From: a virus
Direction: 5' to 3' (one strand)
Virus record (IMG/VR): IMGVR_UViG_3300031857_000324
Location: 1-48,077 of that record
Length of the DNA: 48,077 bases
A model generated the notes under the pieces. That model saw only the letters and a program-made list of their open reading frames with translations, was not told where the DNA came from and did not search any database. The translations under genes were made by a program, and so were the position numbers. Below, one piece after another: positions 13,522 to 41,738 of this stretch (position 1 is its first letter; each line of letters begins with the position of its first letter).

Positions 13522-13532
13522 TTTGTTTGTTT

Positions 13533-27913: not shown

Positions 27914-28183
27914 TTAAACTTGTTCCATTTCAAACACTTCTTCCTTAGATAAAGCTTCAGCTAATTCAGTTGGTTTAAATCTATTAGCATCAAAGTACTC
28001 ATATGGAAAGCAAGACTGGTCTAATTCTATTTCTTTTAGTTTTAGACCAATCTTGTTCTTCTGAATACTTAAATGGGACGCACCTATTACTGTATAGATT
28101 TGACCTTTTCTTATCCACTTCTCTTGAGGAATCTGTTTTGGTTTTCTTGAGTCATCAATACATATCACCTGCATACTCTTCAA
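27914..28183 (-). CDS. Small SH3-like-barrel candidate
   Basis: 89 residues from 28183 (or 86 from the ATG at 28174, giving MQVICIDDS). The pattern VICIDDS...WIRKGQIYTVIG...GLKLKEIELD...YFDANRFKP is that of a small beta-barrel family I recall as common in phages of many hosts; function unknown. It overlaps the ClpS-like gene by 29 bases, so the two are translated together. Confidence 0.65.
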   Translation of the reverse strand: MKSMQVICIDDSRKPKQIPQEKWIRKGQIYTVIGASHLSIQKNKIGLKLKEIELDQSCFPYEYFDANRFKPTELAEALSKEEVFEMEQV

Positions 28184-28409
28184 TTTCTACTTTAAGTTCT
28201 AATTGACTAAGATTAGCATGCATTTCAAGTATGTCTACTATATTGCCTGACTTGATATTACATTTACCTACATTGTGTGCTATCAATGCACACTGTTCAG
28301 CCTGGTCTCTTTCATGGTTACAATACCTTATAAGCAAGGCCATGACATAGAGAAAATCATTTTCTGAGTCATTGTATAAAACCAGCTGATGTGTCTTTTC
28401 CAAAACCAT
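28155..28409 (-). CDS. ClpS-like N-degron adaptor
   Basis: 84 residues, the length of a ClpS core. LVLYNDSENDFLYVM (9-23) matches the ClpS strand and the N-D pair that bind the alpha-amino group of an N-degron (N13, D14). NHERDQAEQCALIAHNVGKC (31-50) matches the following helices and the conserved HxxGKA-type motif (H45, G48, K49), with C50 in place of Ala. The C-terminal LELKVEIEE fits the last ClpS strand. ClpS delivers proteins with destabilising N-terminal residues to ClpA or ClpC. The flexible N-terminal extension needed for delivery is very short here, so it might instead inhibit the host adaptor. Confidence 0.72.
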   Translation of the reverse strand: MVLEKTHQLVLYNDSENDFLYVMALLIRYCNHERDQAEQCALIAHNVGKCNIKSGNIVDILEMHANLSQLELKVEIEEYAGDMY

Positions 28410-28444
28410 ATTGTTTCAGTTAAATTAATAAAAAATCATGTACC

Positions 28445-29539
28445 TCAAAGTTTGATGTTAAAATCTTTCCAGGTGACTTTGTTTTGATCATACCCTTCAA
28501 GAGCTTCCTTAACCCATGCTTCATCTACAGTATCCATGTAACATAGTATATGAACTACTGCTGTGTCATTAGGATTAAGTCTCAACAATCTACCAATTCT
28601 CTGGGCAGACTTTCTCTCATTACCATAGGCATGCATGATAATACCTTGCTTTAGTTCTGGGATGTTAACACCCTCATTCAACTGCATTACTGCAGCCAAC
28701 TTAAGTATCTCACCTCTCTTAAACTTATTTAAGTTTTCTAAAGACTTAGAGTTATTACTATGATAACTATGTTCACAGAGTCTATCTGCTTGCTCCTGAG
28801 TATTAGCAAAGATAATACACTTGGTTTTAATACTGTCAGAAAGAAGCTTTGCATACTTCTCTTTGCTTGGATAAGCCATAAGAGCTTTCATACGCATAAT
28901 TCTTGCTATCTGCAGTCCTTTGCCACTAGCACCGGATATCCTATTAGACCAATAAGAATAGTTAGCCTGTTCTGTAGTCATAAAACCACCTGATTTGGTA
29001 TCTACCTTAACATCTTTTGCTGTACCTAATTTGAGCTGGTGTACAATGATCTTATAGTCATTTAAGATATTATCCTCAATTGCATCATCAATAAAGTAAT
29101 TGTAGACAATAGGACAAAACTCATTGACCATTACACCTTTCTCAGAATGGCTTCTCTTTGGAGGAGTACCTGACAAACCTAATATCTTACCACTATAGTT
29201 CTCTAAGAACTCTCTATGAGAATCCAATAGACTATGACACTCATCAAGATAGAGTAAATCATAATCTGCAGGATCATGTTTATTTAGACTTAAATAAGTG
29301 GTAAAAGTAACCTGGCTTAACAGCCTGTCTTTCTTAAACTTATGTGCTTGCACTTGCCATTCAGATAGAATACTTCTGGTTGGACCAACTACAAGAACAT
29401 TTTTAAGAGGTGTACAATGTTGTTCAATATGTTTTAGGCCAACAAGGGTCTTACCGACCCCTGTGCCCAAACCCAAACCACATCTATGTCTACCTTCAGT
29501 AGCTTTCAATGCTTGTTCTTGTATCTCGTCTCTTGTCAT
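28445..29539 (-). CDS. SF2 DEAD/DEAH-type helicase
   Basis: 364 residues. Motif I GTGVGKT (25-31), motif Ia GPTRS, motif II DECH (99-102), motif III SGTP (123-126), then a helicase C domain with IIFANTQEQADRL and motif VI QRIGRLLRL near residue 320. This is a compact UvsW/RecG-like superfamily 2 ATPase. In phages such proteins handle recombination intermediates or drive origin-independent replication. It overlaps the upstream gene by 4 bases. Confidence 0.9.
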   Translation of the reverse strand: MTRDEIQEQALKATEGRHRCGLGLGTGVGKTLVGLKHIEQHCTPLKNVLVVGPTRSILSEWQVQAHKFKKDRLLSQVTFTTYLSLNKHDPADYDLLYLDECHSLLDSHREFLENYSGKILGLSGTPPKRSHSEKGVMVNEFCPIVYNYFIDDAIEDNILNDYKIIVHQLKLGTAKDVKVDTKSGGFMTTEQANYSYWSNRISGASGKGLQIARIMRMKALMAYPSKEKYAKLLSDSIKTKCIIFANTQEQADRLCEHSYHSNNSKSLENLNKFKRGEILKLAAVMQLNEGVNIPELKQGIIMHAYGNERKSAQRIGRLLRLNPNDTAVVHILCYMDTVDEAWVKEALEGYDQNKVTWKDFNIKL

Positions 29540-30279
29540 TTTGGTAAATTGAAAATTCTTTTTCTTATATAAGCTCCACTTTCTTCTGAATTAGCAATAA
29601 GCTTTACAGTTTTGATGTGCTTATCAAGATTTGCCATTACTTTTTGATGACTGTATGTACTGTAAGCTTGTAAAAAAGCATGAAGAAACTGAAATTTAAC
29701 AGGTCTGTCTACATTACCAATCTTTATAAAGATCTCATTAAATGCTTTACACATTTGCTCAGCTTGTGGATTAGTAATAATAAAGTTACCTGTTTTAATG
29801 ATGGATGTATTATGTCTAATTGCAATGTTATTGATAGCTATCATTGCAAGCATAGTAACTTCAATATCATACATATTCTTCCACTTAAATAACTTCATGT
29901 AATCAGGACGAATCATTTTCCATGCATTGATAAAATCCATCATGTCCCATGACTTACTTGAATTATTCATATAGGCCATAATCTCAATTAATTCTTCTTC
30001 AGACTGAACAGATCTTTCAATATAAGGAATAGGTAAACCCTCTCTTTCAAGAGCAGTAGCTAAGTGTTGACCATCAATAATATAAGTCTTCATTGTACCC
30101 TCTATTAGATTTGTAGTAGTAGTAATAACAGTTCTAACTACTCCAATTTTCCTCATACTTGCAATCATTTTCTGTACATGTTTACTATCTATTGCTCTAT
30201 TCATTGGCAATACAGCAAACTTTGAGTAATCATTTGCATACTTAATTTTAAGTTCTTTTCCAATCATTTCCATAATCAT
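29536..30279 (-). CDS. ParB/sulfiredoxin-like nuclease-domain protein
   Basis: 247 residues from the ATG at 30279, chosen because an A-rich leader precedes it; 30306 is the longest option. The N-terminal domain shows the ParB pattern: MNRAIDSKHVQKMIASM, GVVRTVITT, then YIIDGQHLATALE in place of the usual GxxR box. Phage ParB-like proteins serve in DNA partition, DNA nicking or NTP binding. The C-terminal half is helical and unrecognised. Confidence 0.7.
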   Translation of the reverse strand: MIMEMIGKELKIKYANDYSKFAVLPMNRAIDSKHVQKMIASMRKIGVVRTVITTTTNLIEGTMKTYIIDGQHLATALEREGLPIPYIERSVQSEEELIEIMAYMNNSSKSWDMMDFINAWKMIRPDYMKLFKWKNMYDIEVTMLAMIAINNIAIRHNTSIIKTGNFIITNPQAEQMCKAFNEIFIKIGNVDRPVKFQFLHAFLQAYSTYSHQKVMANLDKHIKTVKLIANSEESGAYIRKRIFNLPK

Positions 30280-30292
30280 AATTTTTAAGTTG

Positions 30293-30472
30293 TTAGATTT
30301 TCTCATTCTTAATCAATAGACTGTTTGCATACAGTGTGTTCTTAAATGCAGCAATAGCAAGCTTCCCAGCTTCAATTTTACCACTCTTATTGAATGTGTC
30401 ATATGCCTTGTTGCCAATTTGTTCTGACTTATCAGCAACATCCTTAATCTGTTTTGTGTTTACTTTGCTCAT
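30293..30472 (-). CDS. Small basic helical protein (59 aa)
   Basis: ATG at 30470-30472, TAA at 30293-30295. 59 residues, Lys-rich, predicted one or two helices. It overlaps the zinc-ribbon gene upstream by 29 bases and ends in the leader of the ParB-like gene. Function unknown. Confidence 0.55.
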   Translation of the reverse strand: MSKVNTKQIKDVADKSEQIGNKAYDTFNKSGKIEAGKLAIAAFKNTLYANSLLIKNEKI

Positions 30473-31202
30473 ACTCTATTTGTTTAATTGTTCTTATTAA
30501 CTCTAACTGTTTTCTCTTAACTTCAATTAACTCAGGGGTTATTTGTTGAACATTTAACTTGTGATTCCCAGCAATACGTTGTTTTATATAAACATCACCA
30601 AGTGCAGTTCTTTGTTTTTTGGAGTAAACCTTTTGATTAACTGTGTATTTGTCTTTGTATTTCTCAAGGGTTACCTTAAGTGCTGCTTTGTACACTTCGG
30701 GATTTCTAACTTTATCTATTTTAAGATTTAACCTTATATTGTTTTTCTTAGATAAAATTTGAAGTTCTTCAGTAGGATAAACCACTTTACAACTTTTATA
30801 TCCATATGTACAAGTCTTACACTTTGCACTCTTGTGATTAACTGCTGAAACTATATACAGTTCATTTTTATCACAAAGTTTAACACCACATTGTTTACAT
30901 TCTTTTGGTTCCACATAAGGAATCTTGACAGCTTCTTTTTTAGGCTTAATAATTCTTTTATAGTAACTTTTACCATGTAGCATTTTAGCTTGTTTAGCAG
31001 CAAACTTTTCTAACTCTGGAGTTGCATACGTATAAACACAGAACTTAGCTTTTCTTGAACAGTGGTTACATGTACTTTTAAGAAAGTAAACTCCAGTATC
31101 TTTATCATATGTAGATAACCTACTATTTCTCTCAATTAGTTCTACACCGCACTTTTTACAGTTTGTGTGATTCCTTACTATTTTTTTAATCATATACATC
31201 AT
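30444..31202 (-). CDS. Double zinc-ribbon protein
   Basis: 252 residues (start at 31202 or the third Met, 31193). Two related zinc ribbons: CKKC near residues 15-18 with CNHC near 45-48, and CKQC near 102-105 with CKTC about 25 residues later. Between and after them are Lys-rich helices. The internal repeat suggests duplication of one ribbon-plus-helix unit. Nucleic-acid binding is likely. Its start overlaps the HNH gene's stop by 4 bases, so it may be its partner. Confidence 0.65.
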   Translation of the reverse strand: MMYMIKKIVRNHTNCKKCGVELIERNSRLSTYDKDTGVYFLKSTCNHCSRKAKFCVYTYATPELEKFAAKQAKMLHGKSYYKRIIKPKKEAVKIPYVEPKECKQCGVKLCDKNELYIVSAVNHKSAKCKTCTYGYKSCKVVYPTEELQILSKKNNIRLNLKIDKVRNPEVYKAALKVTLEKYKDKYTVNQKVYSKKQRTALGDVYIKQRIAGNHKLNVQQITPELIEVKRKQLELIRTIKQIEYEQSKHKTD

Positions 31203-31597
31203 TTTAAATAACCTAATTCTCTAGCCTGTTCTGGATGTTCATGCACCCAATTGTGACAATTCCTACAGACTGCTAACCACGTACTTTGTATAAGGTAATA
31301 CACATTTCTGTTGGCACCGGCATATGTATGATGCACGTCTGTGGCATGCATCATACAACCGGTTACCTTCACCTCACACAAAGTATGTTCAGTCATGAAT
31401 CTCTCTCTTAGTTTGAGATATTCATCATCTAGTTTTTTACGTTTAGAAGAGACCTTGGGGATAAGTGTTGGTTTCTGTGAAGGGTCTTTGCTTTTGTGGC
31501 AACTCCAGCATGTCTTACAGTAAGGTTCCCCAAGGTGTCTCTTCCAAATATATTGCTCAGTATTACATCCCGAGCACAGCTTTTTCTTTGCTTGCAT
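31199..31597 (-). CDS. HNH endonuclease
   Basis: 132 residues. N-terminal zinc ribbon (C8-x2-C11, C27-x2-C30), then the HNH core: ATDVHHTY (85-92, H89/H90), WLAVCRNCHNWVHEHP (107-122) with C111-x2-C114 and H115/H119. A free-standing HNH nuclease of this size can act in packaging, homing or recombination. Neighbouring genes give no terminase context, so the role stays open. Confidence 0.85.
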   Translation of the reverse strand: MQAKKKLCSGCNTEQYIWKRHLGEPYCKTCWSCHKSKDPSQKPTLIPKVSSKRKKLDDEYLKLRERFMTEHTLCEVKVTGCMMHATDVHHTYAGANRNVYYLIQSTWLAVCRNCHNWVHEHPEQARELGYLK

Positions 31598-32102
31598 TTC
31601 TTAATCTTGGCAATTGATTAGGATCTGTAGAGATCTCCATAAAGTTCTTTGGTAGAACACCTTCTTGAATAAAGATACAAATAATATCATCTTTTGTGAT
31701 GTTTAAATCTTTAAAGTTTAGGGTATTCTTGAACTTATCATCAGTCTCACTATTGTTAGTAAAGAACTGAGCAATTGGAGACTCTGGAAATAATCTATTG
31801 AACAACAGATTTGTGATTTGATTTGTCAATTTCTGTTTGTGGAGGTTAATTACCTGTTGTCCTCTTAGATATACTCTTTCAATCCTCTTCTTCTTTTTAC
31901 TACACATAGTAGTAAGCTCTTGTTGTGTGAGGGCATTAAGTCCATACAAAGCTCTTTTGTATAGATAGTTTTGATACGAAGTATATTTATCAATTTCATA
32001 CTCCATTGTGAGTTTCTTAGGCATTAACTGATACTCTTCAAGTTTACCTGTGTACTCAAATCTGTCTTTTCTTTTGTTTAACTTTTCCATATTGATATAC
32101 AT
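31563..32102 (-). CDS. Unknown 179-aa basic protein
   Basis: 179 residues (or 175 from the ATG at 32090). Basic, helical, with a KKKKRIERVYLRGQQ stretch around residue 70. The C-terminus overlaps the HNH gene by 35 bases. Nucleic-acid binding is possible from charge alone. Confidence 0.6.
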   Translation of the reverse strand: MYINMEKLNKRKDRFEYTGKLEEYQLMPKKLTMEYEIDKYTSYQNYLYKRALYGLNALTQQELTTMCSKKKKRIERVYLRGQQVINLHKQKLTNQITNLLFNRLFPESPIAQFFTNNSETDDKFKNTLNFKDLNITKDDIICIFIQEGVLPKNFMEISTDPNQLPRLRNASKEKAVLGM

Positions 32103-32113
32103 TTAATAATTAC

Positions 32114-32152
32114 AATAAAAAAAAGAGAAAGTGGACGAAGTCCACTCTCTCT
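32114..32152 (-). terminator. Strong intrinsic terminator after 157-aa gene
   Basis: On the minus strand AGTGGAC pairs with GTCCACT through a 3-nt loop, extended by purine/pyrimidine pairs (AGAG/CTCT), and is followed by eight T residues. The strongest terminator in the window, it suggests that the 157-aa gene is highly expressed and monocistronic. Confidence 0.85.
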
Positions 32153-32168
32153 TCTACCTAATCAGGTA

Positions 32169-32642
32169 TTAATTACCTAATTCATCAAAGTTTGTATTTG
32201 CTTTGATAGCAGCAGACTTATTTGCATAAGCAGCTCTCAGCTGATCTACATTGTCATGCTTGATCAATGTATCTTCTGCATTTACTGATGCTGAGTATAC
32301 AGTTTTGCGGTAAATTGGAGCACCTGCTACAGTACAAACAATACCTGTTTCACCTGCAATTTTCAGGTCACGCTCAGGATTCTTCTTATTAAATGCTTCA
32401 AGAGACTCAATAATAGAAATTTTACCTGGAAGTTCCTGACCATTGTAGAATCCAAGAGACTGAAGTGTTTCAACTTCACCTTGCAATAGTGTAGAAATTG
32501 TTTTAGGTTTAACAAAACCATTGTCATCAATCATTACACGTGTTTGCTCTAAACGAATGTAACCGTAAATTGGGTTGTTTTCTGAAACATTAACAACTGC
32601 ACCTGATGTAGCATCTGCTACTACTTTAACTGAAGAGTTCAT
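32169..32642 (-). CDS. Unknown 157-aa protein, probably highly expressed
   Basis: 157 residues, beta-rich N-terminus (SVKVVADATSGAVVNVS) and repeated short hydrophobic strands; Ala/Lys-rich helical C-terminus. No motif recognised. It is flanked upstream by a 120-base leader region with inverted repeats and downstream by a strong terminator, indicating an independent unit. Confidence 0.7.
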   Translation of the reverse strand: MNSSVKVVADATSGAVVNVSENNPIYGYIRLEQTRVMIDDNGFVKPKTISTLLQGEVETLQSLGFYNGQELPGKISIIESLEAFNKKNPERDLKIAGETGIVCTVAGAPIYRKTVYSASVNAEDTLIKHDNVDQLRAAYANKSAAIKANTNFDELGN

Positions 32643-32742
32643 AGCTCTAAATTTTGATTAATAAATAAATGAATTGACTTTTTGAGTAGGAAATTACTAT
32701 ATCAACAATTACTCAAGTTGTTTGATAAGTGGTAGTATTGTA

Positions 32743-32772
32743 TATCGCGAGTAACAATACTATTATTCAAGT
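32743..32772. repeat. Inverted repeat between genes
   Basis: TAGTATTGT and ACAATACTA (9 bp) flank a 12-base loop containing the palindrome TCGCGA. It sits immediately downstream of the 112-aa gene and upstream of the 157-aa gene. No U-tract follows on either strand, so an operator or an RNA hairpin is as likely as a terminator. Confidence 0.5.
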
Positions 32773-33101
32773 GGATCCGATAAATCTATAATGTCATCAA
32801 ATGGTATATCATCTGAAGGCATATTCACAATTTCATCATCTGACTCTGGTAAACACTCAAAGTCATAGACTTTTTCAGACTCTTTTTTATCCACACAAGA
32901 GCCATAGAAGGGATTAAGCACTGATTCACCGTAGTCTAGAGACATCAAGTACTGTATATCTGCATCAGTGAGATCTAGATATTCTTCTACTGTTAAGTAG
33001 ACAGTCTTGCCATTCGGTAATTGATAGTACAATTTTACAAATAAGAGTAAATATATGCTATTTAAACTTAAGTGTAAATTACAGCACATCTTTGATTGCA
33101 C
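32763..33101 (-). CDS. Acidic protein of unknown function, start uncertain
   Basis: Up to 112 residues. The convincing part begins around LPNGKTVYLTVEEYLDLTD (about residues 28-46) and runs to an acidic tail rich in Asp (DDIPFDDIIDLSD). No good ATG stands directly before that part, so the start may be an alternative codon or the ATG at 33101. Function unknown. Confidence 0.5.
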   Translation of the reverse strand: MQSKMCCNLHLSLNSIYLLLFVKLYYQLPNGKTVYLTVEEYLDLTDADIQYLMSLDYGESVLNPFYGSCVDKKESEKVYDFECLPESDDEIVNMPSDDIPFDDIIDLSDPLE

Positions 33102-33112
33102 TATATAGCTAA

Positions 33113-33538
33113 CTAGTACAAATCAAACTCATCAGTGGGTATAAAATCCTTTACATCAACAGCAAATTCATTATTCCATGCTTCCCCTGTCTGTTCATCA
33201 ATTGCTCCTGGGGCAAGTACTCTTAGTGGATAATAGTTGTGTAACCCCTGAAAACTTTTTACAGTAACAGGAATATACCCTTGTTGATTAAACATGGAGT
33301 CTTTGTACTTATCCTTATCACCAGACCAGCCTTTATAATTCTCAATAGATATGTATCCATGTGCACCTATTGCTGGTACTTCAGGATACTTAGCACCTAA
33401 ATGAATTTTAAATAGCCACTCTGTACCAGGATGTGATGAACCAAGAGTATCACACAGTAAACGTGCAATATCCTCATTCTTTACATGTTTCTTAATTACA
33501 TTGTATAGATCAGACTCATTAAGACTTATTTGTATCAT
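33113..33538 (-). CDS. Unknown 141-aa protein
   Basis: Start at the ATG at 33538 (MIQISLNESD) rather than 33559. The segment HPGTEWLFKIHLGAKYPEVP followed by GYISIENYKGW gives a mixed alpha/beta protein. No family recognised. The start lies inside the tiny membrane gene upstream, overlapping it by 20 bases. Confidence 0.6.
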   Translation of the reverse strand: MIQISLNESDLYNVIKKHVKNEDIARLLCDTLGSSHPGTEWLFKIHLGAKYPEVPAIGAHGYISIENYKGWSGDKDKYKDSMFNQQGYIPVTVKSFQGLHNYYPLRVLAPGAIDEQTGEAWNNEFAVDVKDFIPTDEFDLY

Positions 33539-33629
33539 CTTTCTCAAAATAGTTAGCAAGTCTTACTACAAGAACAACACCGGCAAAAACTACTGCCAGT
33601 GCTGTAAATACTACGATTAATGTTTTCAT
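33519..33629 (-). CDS. Single-span membrane peptide (36 aa)
   Basis: ATG at 33627-33629 overlapping the upstream stop as ATGA; TAA at 33519-33521. One hydrophobic helix (LIVVFTALAVVFAGVVLVV) and a short charged tail. Translational coupling on both sides supports it. Confidence 0.6.
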   Translation of the reverse strand: MKTLIVVFTALAVVFAGVVLVVRLANYFEKDDTNKS

Positions 33630-33976
33630 TTGGATGTGAGTTCTAAAGGTTCAAATACTAATACTCCATGTCTAAACTCGTAGTTAGTGTGTGCTGAGAT
33701 AGATAAATCTCTCTCATCTATAATATCATCACTCATAGGAGTAATTGAGATTATAGTATGATTATTTATTACTATCTCATAGTCACGGTACTGTTGTACA
33801 TAGAGAACTAACTTAGACCCTTGATACTCAGGTACTCCCAGGTCATACAGTTTGTCATTTTCAATGTAGTACCATTCACATTGTTCAATTGGAGTTTGTA
33901 TATCAATAACTAACTCCATTGGTTCATAATCAGGCTTTCCAGCAAGTAGCTGGATTAATAAAATCATACTTTTCAT
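33626..33976 (-). CDS. Unknown beta-rich protein (116 aa)
   Basis: 116 residues. The first residues (MKSMILLIQLLAG) are hydrophobic but too short for a confident signal peptide. The rest is beta-rich with several acidic turns. No known family. Confidence 0.6.
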   Translation of the reverse strand: MKSMILLIQLLAGKPDYEPMELVIDIQTPIEQCEWYYIENDKLYDLGVPEYQGSKLVLYVQQYRDYEIVINNHTIISITPMSDDIIDERDLSISAHTNYEFRHGVLVFEPLELTSK

Positions 33977-33987
33977 AATCAGTTGTT

Positions 33988-35040: not shown

Positions 35041-35047
35041 AGTTAAT

Positions 35048-35266: not shown

Positions 35267-35277
35267 TTGAGTTGGTT

Positions 35278-35445
35278 TTAAAGTTGAATATCATATTGTT
35301 TAAGATAGCATAGATCATCAATTACTCTTAGTTTAAGAGAATTGATTTTACTCTTACCATCTAGGCAAATCTCTTTTCTAATCTCTTCAAGAGACTGAAT
35401 AGAGAACTTCTTAAAGAAGTTATAAAAGTCAATGTAAGTTTTCAT
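35278..35445 (-). CDS. Small helical protein (55 aa)
   Basis: ATG at 35443-35445 behind the AACTCAA leader; TAA at 35278-35280 inside the next leader. Helical, aromatic-rich N-terminus (KTYIDFYNFFKKF). No known family. Confidence 0.6.
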   Translation of the reverse strand: MKTYIDFYNFFKKFSIQSLEEIRKEICLDGKSKINSLKLRVIDDLCYLKQYDIQL

Positions 35446-35501
35446 TTGAGTTAATTTTTAAGTTAAATGAGCACTTTAAACGTCATACTCAGGACAGCAG
35501 G

Positions 35502-36359
35502 TTAAAATGGTAATTCTGTAAATAGATTATCTAATTCTGAATCCCATTGTCTTCCCGCATAAGAATGAATTTCTTTATTTGGGAACAGTCTCTTTGCACA
35601 CTCTATAGCAACAGTATCATTATACACACCATAGTCTCCTGATTTATAGTAAAGGATAACATCATTACCTATTACTTTCAACCATCCACCATTAGCAGTA
35701 AAATATTTGCTGTTACGGTATACTTCACTGATAGAGCTATGAAAGTTCTCTACAAATTGATATGGATCAAAACACATTCTGCAATCTGTTTCATCATCAT
35801 GGGCAACTTGTATAATAAACTTGATACCATTGCTATTCTGAAAGTCTGATAAATCAACTGGTGACTTATAGACTTTAGAAGCAATATTTACAAGTTTCTT
35901 TCTTAATCTCTCAGTTTCATCTTGCTTCTCTTGAATTTTAGCATACCATTGTTCAGGAGTTCTTGCAAGATCTTGTCTTCTCATTTCAGCTTCATAAGAA
36001 TCTTCAAGATCATCAGTATTGAGAACTGTATTTTCATAGTCTTCTCCTTCTTGTGCAGCAATAGCAGATATATACTCAGAAGCAAGATTCTTTGCTTTGT
36101 CTCTGATATCAATTAAACTTGCCATTGCAGTTATCTTTGCTTCTATCTCCATTGTTTTTTGAAGAGCAAGAGGAGCTACTACTGACATAAACAGTCTTTG
36201 TTCTTCAGCTGTAGACTCTGCCCATCCACCACCTGCAAAACATTTGAAGTCTTCAGATGGTACACTAAATGTTTCATGCTTAGTGCACAGTGTTATTGAG
36301 TTTCTACCATAGGTAACTACAGTAAATAATCCTTGTCTAGATTTTAAGTGAATTTTCAT
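35502..36359 (-). CDS. Unknown 285-aa protein
   Basis: Start at the ATG at 36359 (MKIHLKSRQGLFTVVTYG), which has the AACTCAA leader; the frame is open further up but lacks a good start. N-terminal beta-rich domain (to about residue 55), a central charged coiled coil (about 75-165), and a C-terminal mixed domain with CRMCFDP. I recognise no family. Confidence 0.65.
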   Translation of the reverse strand: MKIHLKSRQGLFTVVTYGRNSITLCTKHETFSVPSEDFKCFAGGGWAESTAEEQRLFMSVVAPLALQKTMEIEAKITAMASLIDIRDKAKNLASEYISAIAAQEGEDYENTVLNTDDLEDSYEAEMRRQDLARTPEQWYAKIQEKQDETERLRKKLVNIASKVYKSPVDLSDFQNSNGIKFIIQVAHDDETDCRMCFDPYQFVENFHSSISEVYRNSKYFTANGGWLKVIGNDVILYYKSGDYGVYNDTVAIECAKRLFPNKEIHSYAGRQWDSELDNLFTELPF

Positions 36360-36524
36360 TTGAGTTGATTTTTGAGTTGATAAATAAGAGCCTAAAGTTA
36401 TTAGCTCTTCTGGTGCTTCTACTGACCGCGTTATCTGTATAGCCACATAAATGTGTAACAGCACGGCTGCACTTTTGAAAGTTCATAAGGTATGCTTCCC
36501 AACCACCTGCATCCTAAAGATGCA

Positions 36525-36686
36525 TCAATTTTTTGTAACAATAGAGAGTTCTTGCTCATAAGATTCTTTGAGCATAAGCAAATCACTCTTCTGTAATTTA
36601 CTTAATGATTCTTTGTACTCTTTAGGACAAGAACCATTTACTGCTGTTACTAATACAGCAATTTCCAAAATCAAATTTGAAATCAT
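36525..36686 (-). CDS. Small protein with hydrophobic N-terminus (53 aa)
   Basis: ATG at 36684-36686, TGA at 36525-36527. N-terminal hydrophobic helix (ISNLILEIAVLVTAV) could be a membrane anchor or signal; the rest is charged and helical. Its 5' leader contains structured element 1 (36724-36808). Confidence 0.5.
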   Translation of the reverse strand: MISNLILEIAVLVTAVNGSCPKEYKESLSKLQKSDLLMLKESYEQELSIVTKN

Positions 36687-36723
36687 ATATGTGTGTTTAA
36701 TTGGTTACTGATTAATACTTTTT

Positions 36724-36808
36724 TGCACTGAGACACAACTAACTACTAGGCAGATAGACAGAATAAATCCTGTGATGACGGCCTCTGTTCATTAGTTGTG
36801 TCAGTGCA
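36724..36808 (-). ncRNA. Structured element 1, in leader of 53-aa gene
   Basis: Terminal arms TGCACTGA(g)ACACAACTAA and TTAGTTGTGTCAGTGCA pair over about 17 bp. On the minus strand a perfect -7 box TATCTTTG (36810-36817 in reverse) lies immediately upstream, so a transcript would begin almost exactly at the first base of the stem. A 5'-end structured leader or regulatory RNA is the simplest reading; the -33 spacing is not ideal. Confidence 0.5.
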
Positions 36809-36869
36809 TCAAAGATAGATTAGTGCTACAGAGGTTATCCACCAATGTAGCATAGGTTAGTGGAACCGT

Positions 36870-36901
36870 TCCGCTCTAAACTATTTTTACTAACCTATTA
36901 T
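36870..36901. repeat. Short inverted repeat between elements 1 and 2
   Basis: Within about 36853-36900 TAGGTTAGT and ACTAACCTA form a 9-bp inverted repeat, with a small GGAAC/GTTCC hairpin inside. Another member of the palindromic series in this stretch, without an evident gene. Confidence 0.4.
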
Positions 36902-36911
36902 TTGACCCCTC

Positions 36912-37010
36912 TGCACTTAGTTGTGATAACTGGTATTCCAGCATCCCGTATACTCACAGGCTAACTACATGTTAGTATCACAACTGCCTGACCAAGGTCA
37001 GATTAGTGCA
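36912..37010 (-). ncRNA. Structured element 2, multi-branched
   Basis: Closing stem TGCACT/AGTGCA; next a hairpin CTGACC-GGTCAG; then a 10-bp stem AGTTGTGATA/TATCACAACT enclosing three small hairpins (CTAAC/GTTAG, CCTGT/ACGGG, CTGG/CCAG). It shares CCCCTCTGCACT, AGTTGT and CTGCCTGACC with element 3, where the 10-bp stem differs but still pairs. That covariation argues for a conserved RNA or DNA structure. The last codons of the 73-aa gene run into it. Confidence 0.55.
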
Positions 37011-37219
37011 TTAGGATACAGGCTTTGCACCTGTCTATTGTATTTCAAGAAGTTTTTTTCTGCTATCTCAATTTGATTCTTGAAATAACCTGTTTTGTTA
37101 CCCTTTCTTTTATTAAAAATCATCAATGATTCCATCACCATTATATGTTTTCTCAACTTTCTTGTAAGTATAACATACTCTAAAAAGTTTTCTTCAGTTA
37201 TTGATTTAATTGTTTTCAT
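36998..37219 (-). CDS. Small basic helical protein (73 aa)
   Basis: 73 residues, helical, rich in Lys and Arg; C-terminus SLYPNALI. Its stop lies 13 bases inside structured element 2, so the RNA fold could affect termination or stability of this message. Function unknown. Confidence 0.6.
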   Translation of the reverse strand: MKTIKSITEENFLEYVILTRKLRKHIMVMESLMIFNKRKGNKTGYFKNQIEIAEKNFLKYNRQVQSLYPNALI

Positions 37220-37232
37220 TTTAAGTTTTAAA

Positions 37233-37427
37233 TTAAGGTTCTGTTACAACATAAGGTTCATTACCTATATATCGTTTTGAGGGAGTATACTCTTCTAACA
37301 CTTGTAGTATCGTGAATGATTCATCTCCAATGGAGATATGTGTACTACTCCCTATATATTTAGATAGGTCTTTAGTAGTATAGTAAGAGTACATGTTACC
37401 TGATTGGGTTTTGATAAGATAGTTCAT
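37233..37427 (-). CDS. Small beta-rich protein (64 aa)
   Basis: 64 residues, beta-rich (NYLIKTQSGNMYSYYTTKDL). ATG behind the leader AAACTCAACTCAA. Structured element 3 lies 46 bases upstream, in the leader. Function unknown. Confidence 0.6.
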   Translation of the reverse strand: MNYLIKTQSGNMYSYYTTKDLSKYIGSSTHISIGDESFTILQVLEEYTPSKRYIGNEPYVVTEP

Positions 37428-37472
37428 TTGAGTTGAGTTTTAAGTTTTATTAATCTATTGTTTATACCCCTC

Positions 37473-37621
37473 TGCACTCAGTTGTAAGATCACTGTGCAA
37501 GTACATAAACTCCACCCGTTACGGTTTCACAGTCTACATTCCACTCGTGATGCACAAGTACTCTCTTGGAACTTAAGATGATACTTACAACTGCCTGACC
37601 TTGGGAATCAGGAATGGTGCA
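37473..37621 (-). ncRNA. Structured element 3, in leader of 64-aa gene
   Basis: Closing stem TGCAC/GTGCA, hairpin CCTGA/TCAGG, long stem AGTTGTAAG/CTTACAACT, and internal hairpins CAAG/CTTG, ACTGTG/CACAGT and CCGT/ACGG. Same outer architecture as element 2 with a longer interior (149 versus 99 nt). No ORF within. Ends 46 nt before the ATG of the 64-aa gene. Confidence 0.55.
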
Positions 37622-37628
37622 TTAATAA

Positions 37629-37707
37629 AACAAAGAGAACTAAAGCCCACGACCTAACCATTGTTGATCTAACAGGCAACCCCATGGTACGAGTTGTTCT
37701 CTTTGTT
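37629..37707. repeat. Structured element 4, 12-bp inverted repeat
   Basis: AACAAAGAGAAC and GTTCTCTTTGTT form a perfect 12-bp closing stem around 55 bases. The interior reads, on the minus strand, GGTTAGGTCGTGGG, which recalls the variable loop and T-stem of a tRNA, but no T-stem partner exists. It may be a decayed tRNA or one more member of the structured series. Confidence 0.5.
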
Positions 37708-37713
37708 ATATGG

Positions 37714-37806
37714 TACTCTCACAAGGTTGCAACCCTTGACATACATCCAACACCGAGGCATCATAAGCCAATTGGTAGTATGTTATCCTGCAATTGGATG
37801 AGAGTA
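37714..37806. repeat. Structured element 5, multi-branched
   Basis: Closing stem TACTCTCA/TGAGAGTA with internal hairpins CAAGG/CCTTG (7-nt loop) and CCAATTG/CAATTGG. Same style of closed multi-branched structure as elements 2 and 3. No protein-coding frame of its own is convincing here. Confidence 0.5.
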
Positions 37807-37821
37807 ATATTGGTAATTAAT

Positions 37822-37950
37822 TTACAGTGTGTACTCTATGCTATAGTACTTACCGTCTTCACTGCGCATGCTGGCAATGATTTCATTTGGGGTGTAATAA
37901 GTAACACCATTTCTTGTATACTCAAAGAGTATTACTTTGTTATCCTCCAT
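37822..37950 (-). CDS. Small protein between structured elements (42 aa)
   Basis: ATG at 37948-37950, TAA at 37822-37824. The translation (MEDNKVILFEYTRNGVTYY, then TPNEIIASM) has a normal phage composition. An overlapping plus-strand frame (37684-37986) crosses inverted repeats and has an unlikely composition. Element 5 follows 16 bases downstream. Confidence 0.5.
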   Translation of the reverse strand: MEDNKVILFEYTRNGVTYYTPNEIIASMRSEDGKYYSIEYTL

Positions 37951-37981
37951 GTAATTTATTTTGAGGGTGAATATACTAATG

Positions 37982-38052
37982 AATGAGTAGTTTTATATCA
38001 TACTCAGGATAATCTCGGGTGGCTATGAGACTACTTAATAAAGTAATACTCA
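37982..38052. repeat. Structured element 6, nested inverted repeats
   Basis: ATGAGTA and TACTCAT form the outer pair; AGTAGT and ACTACT pair inside, with further short palindromes. It lies between the 42-aa and 90-aa genes, in a gap without coding potential. Confidence 0.4.
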
Positions 38053-38104
38053 TACAAAGAGTAATCATACATATATGTAATCAGATAAAAGGGTTACGTA
38101 TTAA

Positions 38105-38377
38105 TTAAAGATTGTCTATTAGTATTAGACTGTCAAGATCTGAATACTTACCACCATATACTTTGTGGGTATTGTAGTTTTCTATCCAGATACTATCTTC
38201 AGATACTTCTAAGTAGTATTCTATGTCAATGTTACCACCAACATCAGACCAGTCCTGAGATATATCCGCGGGAGACTCTGTTGCTCTTCTATTAATGTCT
38301 CCTATAGAGAATCCTATAGTAAAGAATACAATAGATAGTAGAACAAATACAGTTGTAATCATATACTCTCTTTTCAT
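38105..38377 (-). CDS. Membrane-anchored protein (90 aa)
   Basis: 90 residues. One N-terminal membrane anchor or signal (MITTVFVLLSIVFFTIGFSIG, about 6-26) followed by an acidic, beta-rich outside domain. No lipobox. It lies behind a non-coding leader of nearly 400 bases starting at the promoter-like motif at 38766. Confidence 0.6.
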   Translation of the reverse strand: MKREYMITTVFVLLSIVFFTIGFSIGDINRRATESPADISQDWSDVGGNIDIEYYLEVSEDSIWIENYNTHKVYGGKYSDLDSLILIDNL

Positions 38378-38546
38378 ATGTATAGTTTTAATTGATTGCA
38401 GTGTTTTATAGCCATATACTCAGTGAAGAGTGGCTACTTATGTGTGTATTTTGAGCTTTGGTTAAGTAGTATGAGTATAAGGTATGATTGATTCTCAACT
38501 ACTTAGCCCCTCTTACTTAAAGTAATTATGTATTATTTATACTCAA

Positions 38547-38634
38547 CTTTAGGAATCCAAGAATGTTTTCCAGTGTTTACTGGATACTCACCCCGTAATT
38601 TCCAAGACTTGTTTACCTTTAGGAATCCAAGAAT
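38547..38634. repeat. 18-bp direct repeat pair
   Basis: CTTTAGGAATCCAAGAAT occurs twice, starting at 38547 and 38617, 70 bp apart; a partial copy TTTCCAAGACTT lies between them. Iteron-like spacing of about seven helical turns suggests a protein-binding site. Confidence 0.55.
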
Positions 38635-38677
38635 AGTATATTGTGAATAGTTAATACTTAATACACATGTGCATACG

Positions 38678-38755
38678 CTGATACAGTTTCAGTGACCAGG
38701 GAGAATATACAATTAACAGTATTCAATGTACATATATCTGCATATCCTGTATCAG
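38678..38755 (-). ncRNA. Structured element 7 just after promoter-like motif
   Basis: CTGATACAG and CTGTATCAG (9 bp) close a 78-base element. On the minus strand it begins about 10 bases after the GACAACCC motif, so it would be at or near the 5' end of a transcript from there. Confidence 0.4.
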
Positions 38756-38765
38756 TTTGAGTAGA

Positions 38766-38785
38766 GGGTTGTCCAAATAGGATAT
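38766..38785 (-). promoter_or_regulatory. GACAACCC promoter-like motif, copy 1
   Basis: Minus strand: TATTTGGACAACCCT. One of three copies (also 39978 and 40435). It follows the terminator of the 71-aa gene and precedes the long non-coding region. The TATTTG part resembles a degenerate -7 box. Confidence 0.5.
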
Positions 38786-38789
38786 GAGA

Positions 38790-38823
38790 AAGACAAAAGA
38801 GCAAGGCTTGTGTAGCCCTGCTC
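38790..38823 (-). terminator. Intrinsic terminator after 71-aa gene
   Basis: On the minus strand GAGCAGGGCT pairs with AGCCTTGCTC around a 5-nt loop and is followed by TTTTGTCTTT. Confidence 0.75.
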
Positions 38824-38849
38824 ATGTCTTGTGTAACATAAACTGTAGA

Positions 38850-39065
38850 TTACTCTATAGTAATTGGGGATTGTTTATTATTGTATGGTGAAAGACCTGT
38901 GTAGTCTTGTACCATTATAAGTGTCTTGCCTATGATAGGATTGCTAGTTTCTGATTCTAGCCTGTATCCTAATTTGACTGCATGTACAAATGCTTGTTCA
39001 ATGTTTGTGTAGTCTTGTTCAGTAATGAATAGAACTAATTTTCCTTTTGTAACAAATGGTTTCAT
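38850..39065 (-). CDS. Small protein of early region (71 aa)
   Basis: 71 residues, mixed alpha/beta (GKLVLFITEQDYTNIEQAF). Leader ACAAACATTACACATT before the ATG. It and the 62-aa gene upstream share one terminator at 38790-38823. Function unknown. Confidence 0.6.
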   Translation of the reverse strand: MKPFVTKGKLVLFITEQDYTNIEQAFVHAVKLGYRLESETSNPIIGKTLIMVQDYTGLSPYNNKQSPITIE

Positions 39066-39080
39066 AATGTGTAATGTTTG

Positions 39081-39269
39081 TTATATTGTAGGTGGATAAC
39101 TGTATTCCCATGACCATGAATAAGTGCCTTCTTCTGTTATAATGTAACGTTTAACCTGAAGACCTTGTGCCTTTCTTTTTAATGCTAAGTAAGGATTACT
39201 TGTGATGTGTTCAATACCATCTTTAGTATATGTGAAGATAGTGTTGTAAATTGAGTACAATGGATTCAT
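39081..39269 (-). CDS. Small protein of early region (62 aa)
   Basis: 62 residues, aromatic and beta-rich, with a short basic helix (YLALKRKAQGLQVKRYI). 15 bases before the 71-aa gene. Function unknown. Confidence 0.55.
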   Translation of the reverse strand: MNPLYSIYNTIFTYTKDGIEHITSNPYLALKRKAQGLQVKRYIITEEGTYSWSWEYSYPPTI

Positions 39270-39303
39270 GCTGTGTAAGGTTAAGTGATTGAATTGTTAA
39301 AGA

Positions 39304-39333
39304 ACAGGGCAGGCATGTGCCCACCCTGTGTGA
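39304..39333 (-). terminator. Intrinsic terminator after 179-aa gene
   Basis: The hairpin 39304-39329 (on the minus strand ACAGGG, GGCA, then TGCC, CCCTGT) is followed by TTCTTTAA at lower coordinates on that strand. It separates the 179-aa gene from the 62-aa gene, so the latter needs its own promoter or read-through. Confidence 0.7.
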
Positions 39334-39351
39334 TCATGTGAAATCCTTGAG

Positions 39352-39891
39352 TTACTCTGCTTCACTCTCTGGATTTACTTTGGCTTTTGCTTTAGGCTTT
39401 GGAGCCTCTGTGTCCTGATCAGTGTCATCATCTACAGAATCAATGTCAATGCTGTTCATTGCCTGTACAGCAGTTGCACTTGGCTTGAGCCCCATAACAC
39501 TGTAAGCCTTTGCATTGATGAGAATGTCTTGGATCTTCTCATTCTTAACTCTGTCTAACTGACCAGTAAGACGTGTAAAGCCTGATTCATCCAAACCGTA
39601 GTTATAAGTGCCAGTCTTTGGATTCACTTTGCGTGATCTGTAGAGTGTGCACTCATCTGTAATGCTTGGATAAAGAGTTGAGAAGATAACTGATCCATCA
39701 TCACTGACCGGATTGAATGTTGCTGTTTTGACAGTGTCAATGTACAACTGCAGTTCTTCTTTAGGACCTGAGACAGTATAGAAATGTCTGTGTCCTTCTG
39801 GGCAAACTCCTTTGTCACCACGTGCCAATAATTCGTCTGCTTTGCCTGTTGTGTCTTTTCTTGAGAAAGACCATGTTGCTTTAAGTGCCAT
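39352..39891 (-). CDS. Early protein with acidic tail (179 aa)
   Basis: Start at the ATG at 39891 (MALKATWSFSRKDTTG), preceded by the A-rich leader AAAAACTTACACAAG; the open frame upstream has no suitable start. The first 130 residues are alpha/beta with several basic patches; the last 40 are Asp/Glu-rich and then Lys/Pro/Ala-rich, like the flexible tail of a DNA-binding protein. Its own promoter-like motif (39978) and terminator make it a single-gene unit, suggesting strong early expression. Confidence 0.65.
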   Translation of the reverse strand: MALKATWSFSRKDTTGKADELLARGDKGVCPEGHRHFYTVSGPKEELQLYIDTVKTATFNPVSDDGSVIFSTLYPSITDECTLYRSRKVNPKTGTYNYGLDESGFTRLTGQLDRVKNEKIQDILINAKAYSVMGLKPSATAVQAMNSIDIDSVDDDTDQDTEAPKPKAKAKVNPESEAE

Positions 39892-39977
39892 CTTGTGTAA
39901 GTTTTTAAGATGTGAATAAATAAAGTGAATTACCTGTGAACACATGTGCATTTCTGCTTGTGTCCATGTTAAGTTAA

Positions 39978-39998
39978 GGGTTGTCCAAACAAGGATGT
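39978..39998 (-). promoter_or_regulatory. GACAACCC promoter-like motif, copy 2
   Basis: Minus strand: CTTGTTTGGACAACCCTT, about 87 bases before the 179-aa gene and 50 bases after the previous terminator. Confidence 0.5.
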
Positions 39999-40043
39999 GC
40001 ATAGTCTGCGTAAGAAAGAGAAGTTGTTGTGAAAAAATGTGAA

Positions 40044-40072
40044 GAAAAAAAGAGTAACATTTCTGTTACTCT
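40044..40072 (-). terminator. Intrinsic terminator after 107-aa gene
   Basis: On the minus strand AGAGTAAC pairs with GTTACTCT (8 bp, 6-nt loop) and is followed by seven T residues. Clear terminator. Confidence 0.85.
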
Positions 40073-40078
40073 GTGCAA

Positions 40079-40402
40079 TCATTGAGCAGATTTGAGCTCG
40101 GCAGCAAGCTGTCTTTGCTCAATCTTGCTCTTGATTGGGTCAATATCAGACAAACTGAGTTTGTCATGAGGTTGGCCCGGCTCAGGTGTGAGTGTAAACG
40201 TGGCAAGGTATGTCATACCGCTGACAAGTTTGCATGCCTGAGCATAATTGGTGTGAACTGGCCAATATGTTTTTGGCCGAGTGACACCTTCATAAGTCTC
40301 TGGTGGCATTGCCACATCAGAGGCTTTAATGATGATTTGGTCCCAATTGCCATCCTTGGCATTGTACTGGAACAAAGCTGTGCAAGAAAATTGTTTTTTC
40401 AT
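40079..40402 (-). CDS. First minus-strand early protein (107 aa)
   Basis: Start at the ATG at 40402 (MKKQFSCTALFQYNAKDGN); longer frames run through the promoter region. Beta-rich with a WDQIIIKASDV strand and charged helical C-terminus; no family recognised. Leader ATAAACTTATACAAA. It is the first gene after the divergent control region, with its own promoter-like motif 33 bases upstream and its own terminator. Confidence 0.65.
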   Translation of the reverse strand: MKKQFSCTALFQYNAKDGNWDQIIIKASDVAMPPETYEGVTRPKTYWPVHTNYAQACKLVSGMTYLATFTLTPEPGQPHDKLSLSDIDPIKSKIEQRQLAAELKSAQ

Positions 40403-40653
40403 TTTGTATAAGTTTATGTTACAAAATGAGTAAAGGGTTGTCTGAACAAGCATGCAATCCAGCATAAGCAAAAACTTTTTGACAAGGGAAAAAAGTTGCA
40501 TGCTTTGCTGCAAGATTGCTCCCACGTGGTGCAAGTCAAGGGGGGTCCCCACCCTTGCGCGGCAGCCGGGGGGCTTGTGATATAGGACCCATCACATGCT
40601 CTACTATAGTATTAAAATTTTACCCTTATAGTATTTTGTTTTATCTTTACCTT
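40403..40653. promoter_or_regulatory. Divergent control region with GC-rich hairpins
   Basis: Transcription leaves in both directions here. From left to right it holds the GACAACCC motif copy 3 (40435-40450, minus strand), a GC-rich block at about 40520-40576 in an otherwise AT-rich genome, containing the hairpin CAAGGG/CCCTTG with GGG/CCC inside (40537-40557) and AGCC/GGCT beside it, then TGTGAT/ATCACA at 40576-40596, and an AT-rich stretch before the plus-strand ATG at 40654. Possible promoter-operator region, and a candidate replication origin. Confidence 0.65.
40435..40450 (-). promoter_or_regulatory. GACAACCC promoter-like motif, copy 3
   Basis: Minus strand: CTTGTTCAGACAACCCTTTACTC, 33 bases upstream of the 107-aa gene. 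Shares the GACAACCCT core and the downstream ACTC with copy 1. Confidence 0.5.
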
Positions 40654-41067
40654 ATGAAGAAGATTGATATGGGGAAGTTTGTTCTTCTTATAGGAGATGA
40701 TGCTACTGAGATCTTTGATTACTATGGTGTCAAAGAGATGCACGGGTTGAACCGTAAAGATGCCCAGGCAGAAGAAGTTGATAAGACTACAGGTAATGGT
40801 GTTTATATATATGGTTGGACTAATTATGATCCCCGGGACAAGAAGCTTACAGCAAAAGCCCCGTATAAACCTTTTCTCTTTCTGAACAAAAAACACTTTA
40901 CTGGAAAGTTTACTGATATTACCCTTGTTAATCATGAGGCTATGCATATAGTTATTTTGCTTAATAACTGGGATATCCGGGATAAGGAAGAAGAGACAAT
41001 ATCTGAAGCAGAAGATATTACTAATAGGATAGTGAAGATGCTTAAGCTAGATAAATTTACTAAGTGA
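40654..41067 (+). CDS. Small zincin-type metalloprotease-like protein
   Basis: 137 residues from the ATG at 40654; an upstream frame from 40516 runs through the GC-rich control hairpins and is rejected. NHEAMHIVILL (93-103) is a classical HExxH zinc site (H94, E95, H98) and EEETISEAED 14 or more residues later offers the third, glutamate ligand (E114 or E118). Phage proteins of this form are common in Bacteroidota phages, role unknown. Its stop overlaps the GTG of the next gene by 4 bases, so the two are made together. Confidence 0.75.
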   Translation: MKKIDMGKFVLLIGDDATEIFDYYGVKEMHGLNRKDAQAEEVDKTTGNGVYIYGWTNYDPRDKKLTAKAPYKPFLFLNKKHFTGKFTDITLVNHEAMHIVILLNNWDIRDKEEETISEAEDITNRIVKMLKLDKFTK

Positions 41068-41738
41068 AAGTATACTTTGACCATATCAAAGGCTTTGGTA
41101 AAGTCAGTGATCTAGAGCTTATCATTAACTGTGCCTATGGTATATTAGAACCAAATGAATCTTGTATAGATGCACTAAAGCAAGGATGGATACCATGGGA
41201 GGGCAGATGGTATAATGAGCGTAGCACTAGATTAGATCTGAGTATTTATCAACCCACAAAGACTACAAAAAAATTATCTAAGAAAGTTAATGTTGCTGTA
41301 GGAGATGTATTAGCTCATAAAGAGATGTATGAAGAGCTTTATGAAAAGTACTGTTCTTATCATGGGTTTAAAAGAGATATTAAGTTAGAGTCTTTTAAAG
41401 ATTGTCAGGTTATAGAATACTGGACAGATTACCTAGTAGGGATTAGTTTATATAAACAGTTTGAAACACAGTTTGTAGCATATCAGTTTATATGGGATTA
41501 TGCAGACCCTAAATTATCCCTAGGTACAGTTGCTCAGTACTATGAATGTGAGACTGCTAAGCTACTTGATTGTGAATATGTTTATCTCTTAGGTGGGTAT
41601 GAAAAATGTTGTGAGTATAAAGCTAACTATCCCGGGTTTGAGTTTTGGACCGGTCAAGAATGGTCTAGTGATGTAGACTTATACAAGCAACTAGTAGGAA
41701 GAGATGAAAGAATTAAAATTATTGAATATGATGTATGA
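41064..41738 (+). CDS. Aminoacyl-tRNA-protein transferase-like (arginyl/leucyl type)
   Basis: 224 residues, GTG start in a GTGA overlap with the zincin gene. The N-terminal part has GRWYNERSTRLDLS (47-60), like the WY.RS/TR segment of bacterial arginyl/leucyl-tRNA-protein transferases. The GNAT-fold C-terminal part matches strongly in pattern: VAYQFIWDYADPK (138-150), LSLGTVAQYYECETAKLL (151-168), YVYLLGGYEKCCEYKANY (172-189). These enzymes attach an amino acid from tRNA to a protein's N-terminus, creating an N-degron. Together with the ClpS-like protein at 28155-28409 this suggests a phage N-degron pathway. The N-terminal Cys cluster of eukaryotic ATE1 is absent. Confidence 0.62.
   Translation: MKVYFDHIKGFGKVSDLELIINCAYGILEPNESCIDALKQGWIPWEGRWYNERSTRLDLSIYQPTKTTKKLSKKVNVAVGDVLAHKEMYEELYEKYCSYHGFKRDIKLESFKDCQVIEYWTDYLVGISLYKQFETQFVAYQFIWDYADPKLSLGTVAQYYECETAKLLDCEYVYLLGGYEKCCEYKANYPGFEFWTGQEWSSDVDLYKQLVGRDERIKIIEYDV

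Follow-up and report, generated by a model that had tools for sequence, protein, structure and literature searches.

A phage ClpS-family protein that seems to lack the N-terminal delivery extension and a distant relative of the arginyl/leucyl-tRNA-protein transferases, encoded in one genomic region

The IMG/VR virus record IMGVR_UViG_3300031857_000324, a stretch of 48,077 bases with a G+C content of 34% that was analysed whole and is called the window here, contains a minus-strand gene for a ClpS-core protein of 84 amino acids without the host-type N-terminal extension (positions 28155..28409), and a plus-strand gene for a 224-amino-acid protein of the ATE/Bpt (arginyl/leucyl-tRNA-protein transferase-like) family with a GTG start (41064..41738). 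The start of the latter, hereafter ATE, overlaps by 4 nt a plus-strand open reading frame (ORF) of 137 amino acids for a putative zinc metallopeptidase with a HEAMH motif (40654..41067), and its 3' end overlaps by 35 nt the gene for a small protein, O82 (41704..41952, plus strand; 65-82 amino acids across loci). An earlier note, made from the letters alone, had joined ClpS and ATE in one region spanning 28155-41738; they do lie in the same region, but that span connects two genes on opposite strands, 12,655 bases apart, so that a dedicated two-gene operon is rejected. Contigs of 100,016, 92,432, and 33,335 bases encode a ClpS identical to that of the window, and their ATE is identical as well where the contig reaches it.

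The ClpS frame is open on the minus strand from 28409 to 28155, while the plus strand contains stops. Its product matches Pfam ClpS (PF02617) with 42.6 bits (5.2e-11; cut-off, 23), and its five NCBIfam matches are, without exception, ClpS models, all far under their equivalog cut-offs; PHROGs returned only phrog_27368, annotated "ATP-dependent protease," at 0.0073. The AlphaFold (AF2) model, obtained from an alignment of 15 phage ClpS sequences (A1), has a mean predicted local distance difference test score (pLDDT) of 89.2, and its top structural matches are ClpS proteins: AtClpS1, with a VIA Z of 15.0 and a root mean square deviation (rmsd) of 0.9 over 78 residues, and E. coli ClpS, with a Z of 14.4. 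In E. coli ClpS, residues N34, D35, and H66 contact the alpha-amine of the N-degron. These align with N13, D14, and H45 of the window protein.

Relatives in viral contigs numbered 7 by single-protein search and 351 by alignment search, and the best 80 of the 351 were reduced to 51 distinct phage ClpS cores, which were compared with 79 ClpS sequences of Bacteroidota. All 51 phage cores keep the N34-D35 equivalents and 48 keep that of H66, and the position of M40 is occupied by F or Y in the phage proteins and by F in 79/79 host proteins. The window ClpS aligns to 14 other phage sequences at 45-67% identity, and the gene is under purifying selection, with a median ratio of nonsynonymous to synonymous substitution rates (dN/dS) of 0.29 (14 of 21 pairs unsaturated). 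Judged by sequence and predicted structure, the window encodes a genuine ClpS-family protein with a retained N-degron pocket, and the residues named in the earlier note for its ClpS-like call (N13, D14, and H45xxGKC) are correct. In one phage (G070; L428, L448, and L453), the ClpS frame is interrupted by one TAA and the polymerase match falls into two pieces approximately 1 kb apart, possibly owing to an insertion or to sequencing errors.

The phage and host proteins differ most clearly at their ends. An ATG lies 12 residues ahead of the N34 equivalent in 47 of the 51 phage sequences and 11 residues ahead in 3 more, giving 50/51 at -12 or -11 versus 1/79 in Bacteroidota (none at -12 and one at -11), although the short form may be over-represented, as the best 80 of the 351 loci were used. 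A start codon is found 18-40 residues upstream in every one of the 79 host frames (ATG in 77). The window frame is closed two residues above the ATG at -12, and closure within 18 residues upstream was found in 20/51 phage frames, the window's type included. According to PMC9663308, 33 residues precede N34 in E. coli ClpS and the core comprises residues 27-106, by which measure the phage protein would have approximately 5 residues where the E. coli protein has an arm of 26; judging from the reading frames, the N-terminal delivery extension seems absent from phage ClpS. At the other end, the last seven residues (28158..28178, minus strand) form a C-terminal tail ending in [ML][HY], which is present in 44/51 phage sequences versus 0/79 in Bacteroidota. 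Correspondingly, the length from QAEQC to the end is 49 residues in 46/51 phage and 42 in 73/79 host proteins, the phage form being 7 residues longer; the tail is modelled at low confidence (pLDDT, 48 over the last block).

Departures from this pattern were also observed. In the sister phages G140 and G141, apart from one at -2, every ClpS start lies at least 25 residues upstream; G135-G138 have theirs 31-34 residues upstream, within a similar upstream sequence, plus a Met at -9; none of these six longer-ClpS contigs has the tail, and none has ATE, with the proviso, valid for every gene absence reported here, that contigs may be incomplete and absences are soft. G134 combines a short start with no tail, and in two ClpS proteins from uncultured phages of 635 kb, the N34 equivalent is still preceded by 26 and 29 residues. 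In all ten large contigs that carry both ATE and ClpS, a Met is found at -12, and two of them (G067 and G068) have an extra GTG at -27.

The relationship of the 224-amino-acid protein to its family is more distant. It matches Pfam ATE_C (PF04377) with 28.8 bits (2.1e-6; residues 88-193; cut-off, 25), and the homologue L045 does so with 37.5 bits; no Pfam match to ATE_N (PF04376) was found in the window protein at E up to 1, although the fold match still covers that part. All six NCBIfam matches are arginyltransferase models, the best with 25.7 bits against an equivalog cut-off of 252 (PRK01305). The AlphaFold model, built from an alignment of 29 phage ATE sequences (A2), has a mean pLDDT of 84.1 and a predicted template modelling score (pTM) of 0.83, and human ATE1 is its best match (VIA Z, 14.3; rmsd, 4.3; 212 residues aligned, model residues 1-217; 15% identity), with yeast ATE1 chains at Z 10.7-12.9. 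The first 27 rows of the Foldseek result are all ATE1, and the A2 profile matched ATE1 alone among PDB sequences (best, 3.3e-5). Viral contigs yielded 47 relatives by single-protein search and 199 by alignment search, 80 of the latter being kept; the resulting 117 ATE loci, many of them on contigs fetched twice, correspond to 60 distinct sequences. Identities between the window ATE and 28 further aligned phage sequences range from 58 to 83%, and the gene is under purifying selection (median dN/dS, 0.15; 25 of 36 pairs unsaturated). Nothing better than 0.12 was returned by PHROGs, tblastn of the window ATE against INPHARED gave no match, and its nearest BFVD entry is a 143-amino-acid uncharacterised Caudovirales protein (29% identity).

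An alternative assignment would make this protein another GNAT- or Fem-type enzyme, acting on a small molecule, a peptide, or a cell-wall precursor. Other GNAT-type chains (VipF, MprF, FemX, RimI, and others) match the model at Z 10.7-13.7, mostly from residue 23 on; FemX, MprF, and aminoacyl-tRNA-dependent peptide synthases lie at Z 10.8-12.9, and two such synthases (9wqx and 9wqw; Z, 10.9 and 10.8) also cover the model nearly from its N-terminus. Two cellular homologues (L318 and L322) match general GNAT models too. The CX2CXnCC zinc site described for the N-terminal domain of yeast ATE1 in PMC10115844 offers a further comparison: a CX2C pair was not found in the N-terminal part of the window ATE, which together with the missing ATE_N match favours the alternative. 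By eye, no such pair was seen in the Microscillaceae homologue L317 either. Four cysteines (C114, C162, C182, and C183) are invariant in the aligned phage ATE sequences, all in the GNAT part, and form a possible metal site. Against a GNAT or Fem assignment, ATE1 is the best structural match and spans both domains, the NCBIfam matches are arginyltransferase models in six cases out of six, and the profile search of PDB sequences returned ATE1 only, and we consider the alternative quite improbable. On sequence and model grounds, the protein is a distant member of the ATE/Bpt superfamily, outside the Bpt equivalog. The earlier transferase-like call was thus borne out by ATE_C and the human ATE1 fold, and the structure searches (AlphaFold and Foldseek) placed neither protein in an unrelated fold.

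The surroundings of ATE point to a unit that comes and goes. O82 lies directly downstream of ATE in 56/60 distinct loci, with an overlap of 4-47 nt when the first O82 start codon is taken; two of the four exceptions (L044 and L048) are cut by contig ends, leaving 56/58 assessable loci, and the other two (L043 and L045) are divergent lineages in which only an O82-related ORF is present, running the other way about 0.9 kb from ATE (minus strand; L043:9756-9965 and L045:9735-9998). O82 is under purifying selection (median dN/dS, 0.11; 22 of 28 pairs); it has no Pfam family, and against PDB sequences it gave one chance-level match (E, 0.076). The idea that O82 is an exclusive partner of ATE was rejected, as ATE is missing from 10 of 49 distinct loci with O82. 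At L602:2568-2948, an ORF with a SET domain (PF00856, 2.1e-8; protein methyltransferase-like) stands just before O82, in the usual place of ATE.

The HExxH ORF behaves differently. The motif and three downstream Glu residues are invariant in 15 aligned members of its family, the motif is kept in 54/54 distinct members and in 28 of the 30 beside ATE (of the other two frames, one is split and one fused), and the gene is constrained (median dN/dS, 0.12; 8 of 15 pairs); neither a PDB sequence match nor a convincing Pfam match was found. Its family occurs in 261 viral contigs, with or without an adjoining ATE. The ORF stands beside ATE in 30 of 60 distinct ATE loci, mostly just upstream and in a few cases downstream or 1.3 kb away, and lacks ATE in 44 of its own 54 distinct loci; in 32 of these 44, the sequence extends more than 1.2 kb in each direction. 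On this count a pathway of metallopeptidase, ATE as writer, and ClpS as reader, suggested by the overlap of the ORF with the ATE start, was rejected, and the ORF, being common without ATE, can rather be regarded as a resident gene beside a variable slot. No O82 was found in these 44 loci, 12 of which are short. In L235:493-1356, ATE is in frame with roughly 45 residues from the start of the HExxH protein and the motif part is missing, which may reflect a fusion, a deletion, or an assembly artefact.

Replacement within this slot can be seen in a pair of close relatives, G066 and G067, whose polymerases are very similar (tip branches, 0.005) and which both carry ClpS. After the HExxH ORF, G067 has ATE and O82, and G066 has a different 210-amino-acid ORF without a Pfam family (L535:14209-14841), in flanking DNA that is 86-98% identical. 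The 210-amino-acid family follows the HExxH ORF in 15 of the 44 distinct loci without ATE, and elsewhere a 2-oxoglutarate oxygenase (L525) or a sub-cut-off methyltransferase match (L511) is found within 300 nt after it. From these gene orders, ATE and O82 look like a cargo that is exchanged as one in a slot of variable gene content.

The 11 records with both ATE and ClpS, some of the same phage, show a spacing of 9,978-14,503 bases and the same divergent relative orientation. Pfam ClpS was found in 14 of 47 ATE contigs and in 8 of the 12 that are at least 90 kb long, so that related phages do carry both genes; ATE contigs without a ClpS match also exist (G034, G042, G045, G080, and G082), and in G066 ClpS is kept though ATE and O82 have been replaced. 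Among 49 chosen large contigs, ATE occurs in 16 and ClpS in 25. With DNA polymerase as a marker of phage lineage, 32 contigs were picked from 80 polymerase loci by polymerase and length (at least 60 kb) alone; both genes are present in 3, ATE only in 1, ClpS only in 10, and neither in 18. In the lone ATE-only contig (G008), ATE starts at base 107, so the expected place of ClpS is missing. The tree of 45 polymerases shows seven ATE changes and seven ClpS changes, and the independent-pairs test of association gave a median p of 0.5; the number of pairs was too small for 0.05 to be attainable. ATE and ClpS recur together and yet also apart; they are not one unit.

These data bear directly on the pathway proposed in the earlier note, in which ATE writes N-degrons and phage ClpS reads and delivers them to host ClpAP/ClpCP, redirecting proteolysis. 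The joint recurrence of the two families with conserved spacing and orientation speaks for such a scheme, as do purifying selection on both genes and the short ClpS of all ten large both-gene contigs, set beside six longer-ClpS contigs without ATE. Weighing against it are the seeming absence of the delivery extension, the occurrence of each gene alone, including the five ATE contigs without a ClpS match, and an association that did not emerge from the few independent pairs on the tree. We regard this scheme as unlikely, and with the genes non-adjacent, a median p of 0.5 from those few pairs, and ATE and O82 replaced in G066, a single pathway of this kind was not supported.

The host is probably a member of the Bacteroidota, judging from where related ClpS sequences occur. 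In genome contigs, the single-protein search gave no confirmed relative and the alignment search gave 153; the 80 kept of the 153 are all labelled Bacteroidota except L080, labelled Alphaproteobacteria, whose ClpS is nearly the same as that of L081, a Bacteroidales metagenome-assembled genome. As the search pattern favours this type of ClpS, we infer the host rather than observe it. Among 45 of these genomes, ATE_C is present in 6 and the leucyl/phenylalanyl transferase Aat in 28.

The interpretation that we tentatively favour over a write-and-read pathway, at a little short of an even chance, is that of two separately acquired genes acting on one pathway, namely a non-delivering ClpS and a probably tRNA-dependent aminoacyltransferase. 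Earlier work reports that the ClpS extension enters the ClpA channel, that the substrate is transferred when ClpA pulls on the extension, and that blocked entry inhibits delivery (PMC9663308 and PMC8138137), and that, in vivo, ClpAP no longer breaks down E. coli ClpS lacking the extension (PMC12974527). As phage ClpS seems to be without this extension, blocking is favoured over redirecting, so that of the two roles offered in the earlier note, the adaptor as a blocker of host ClpS gains and the redirection of host proteolysis loses. The steps could be as follows: (i) phage ClpS, with its pocket kept in sequence and model, would bind N-degrons and probably dock on the N-domain of host ClpA/ClpC; (ii) without the extension, and by analogy with the E. 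coli work, the unfoldase presumably could not pull phage ClpS to release the cargo, while the C-terminal tail may supply another contact; (iii) phage ClpS would then capture N-degrons, compete with host ClpS, or occupy the host unfoldase, in each case without delivery, dampening or re-tuning host ClpS-dependent proteolysis; (iv) ATE, to judge by its family and fold, is probably an enzyme that takes an amino acid from a charged host tRNA and attaches it to selected proteins at their N-termini, and would work with the co-encoded O82 as exchangeable cargo; and (v) the proteins so modified could pass to host ClpS or be retained by phage ClpS, and a phage need not have both genes.

Several points weigh against this interpretation. 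The sequence match of ATE is weak (28.8 bits in Pfam; 25.7 versus 252 in NCBIfam), and ATE and ClpS clearly recur together, so that some coupling is possible. The rule on delivery was established with E. coli ClpA, and Bacteroidota unfoldases may differ; the tail, too, could replace the extension as a handle and restore delivery. Finally, an in-frame start 18-40 residues upstream is found in 22 of 51 phage ClpS frames (ATG in 7, otherwise GTG or TTG), and since about a dozen frames share a similar upstream stretch, which may be untranslated, some could carry an extension unlike that of the host; our confidence is slightly lowered for this reason. The same upstream starts, the conserved tail as a possible substitute handle, and the largely independent distributions of ATE and ClpS speak for two unrelated accessory genes, in which case a short ClpS would still deliver, be it by the tail, by an extension of an unusual kind, or with another unfoldase, and ATE would modify proteins without degradation. 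Known delivery relies on the N-terminal extension (PMC9663308), and we hold this view to be fairly unlikely. A bolder reading can also be conceived, which we place on the unlikely side: a "mute" N-recognin capture system in which the arm-less, tailed ClpS would hold N-degron proteins, including those newly tagged by a transferase complex of ATE and O82, or give them a non-canonical Clp fate.

If such a capture system is real, it would comprise a viral ATE/Bpt-type aminoacyltransferase and a natural delivery-dead ClpS, both undescribed as far as our searches show. A recognition pocket kept while the delivery arm is seemingly lost in many phage contigs would put the staged-delivery model to a natural test, and the arm-less protein is a possible natural blocker of ClpS-dependent proteolysis. 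A phage enzyme of the ATE type, almost always accompanied by O82, would give viruses a novel means of marking host proteins with amino acids drawn from tRNA. Both predictions are open to purified proteins and standard N-end-rule reporters.

Elsewhere in the window, clpS is immediately preceded on its own strand by a DNA helicase gene (28445..29539, minus strand; PHROG 16, 1.4e-36), and the DNA polymerase that served as lineage marker is encoded at 7257..9158 (minus strand; PHROG 1252, 3.8e-141). At 12346-14762, an AAA ATPase (PHROG 1297) adjoins a 409-amino-acid protein that by eye resembles a VWA-domain partner, though its PHROG, 1314, is named HNH endonuclease. The product of 21274-21987 has a GQDPYPG motif that we take to resemble that of uracil-DNA glycosylase, and that of 23423-24292 (PHROG 13321, of unknown function) may be a radical SAM enzyme, given its cysteine cluster CLYNCTYCY. 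No tRNA genes were found in the 48,077 bases, and a PADLOC scan gave zero matches.

With regard to known systems, phage ClpS itself is not new. ClpS proteins of jumbo phages are in print and have been proposed to bring targets to host ClpAP (PMC7824862), gp708 of Agrobacterium phage Atu_ph07 is a ClpS (PMC6102473), BFVD holds phage proteins named ClpS, such as that of RaK2, and the ClpS matches in INPHARED are three records of uncultured phages of 635-642 kb. The jumbo-phage proteins belong to other phages, and no ATE is named in the available parts of those two papers. In the searched literature, whose scope included few subscription papers, no publication turned up that describes a phage ATE/Bpt, nor one that describes an extension-less phage ClpS; as far as these searches show, the phage ATE and this form of ClpS are apparently undescribed. 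Among cellular proteins, ClpS of E. coli and Bacteroidota, the N-degron adaptor of ClpAP/ClpCP, is like phage ClpS in core fold and pocket residues, and the Bacteroidota proteins have the QAEQC...HxxGKC signature in common with it; phage ClpS is unlike host ClpS in its start at -12, its conserved extra tail, and the F or Y at the M40 equivalent. Bpt and ATE1 have an ATE_C domain and a two-domain fold over nearly the full length, as in phage ATE, which differs in its 15% identity to human ATE1, its scores far under the equivalog cut-offs, the missing N-terminal CX2C pair, and the co-encoded O82. Among the eight bacterial loci compared, chromosomal ATE-like proteins of Flavobacteriales (L318-L322) are the best matches to the phage profile (3.2e-14, L318), and these proteins have 243-249 amino acids and also match general GNAT models, unlike the 224-amino-acid phage ATE.

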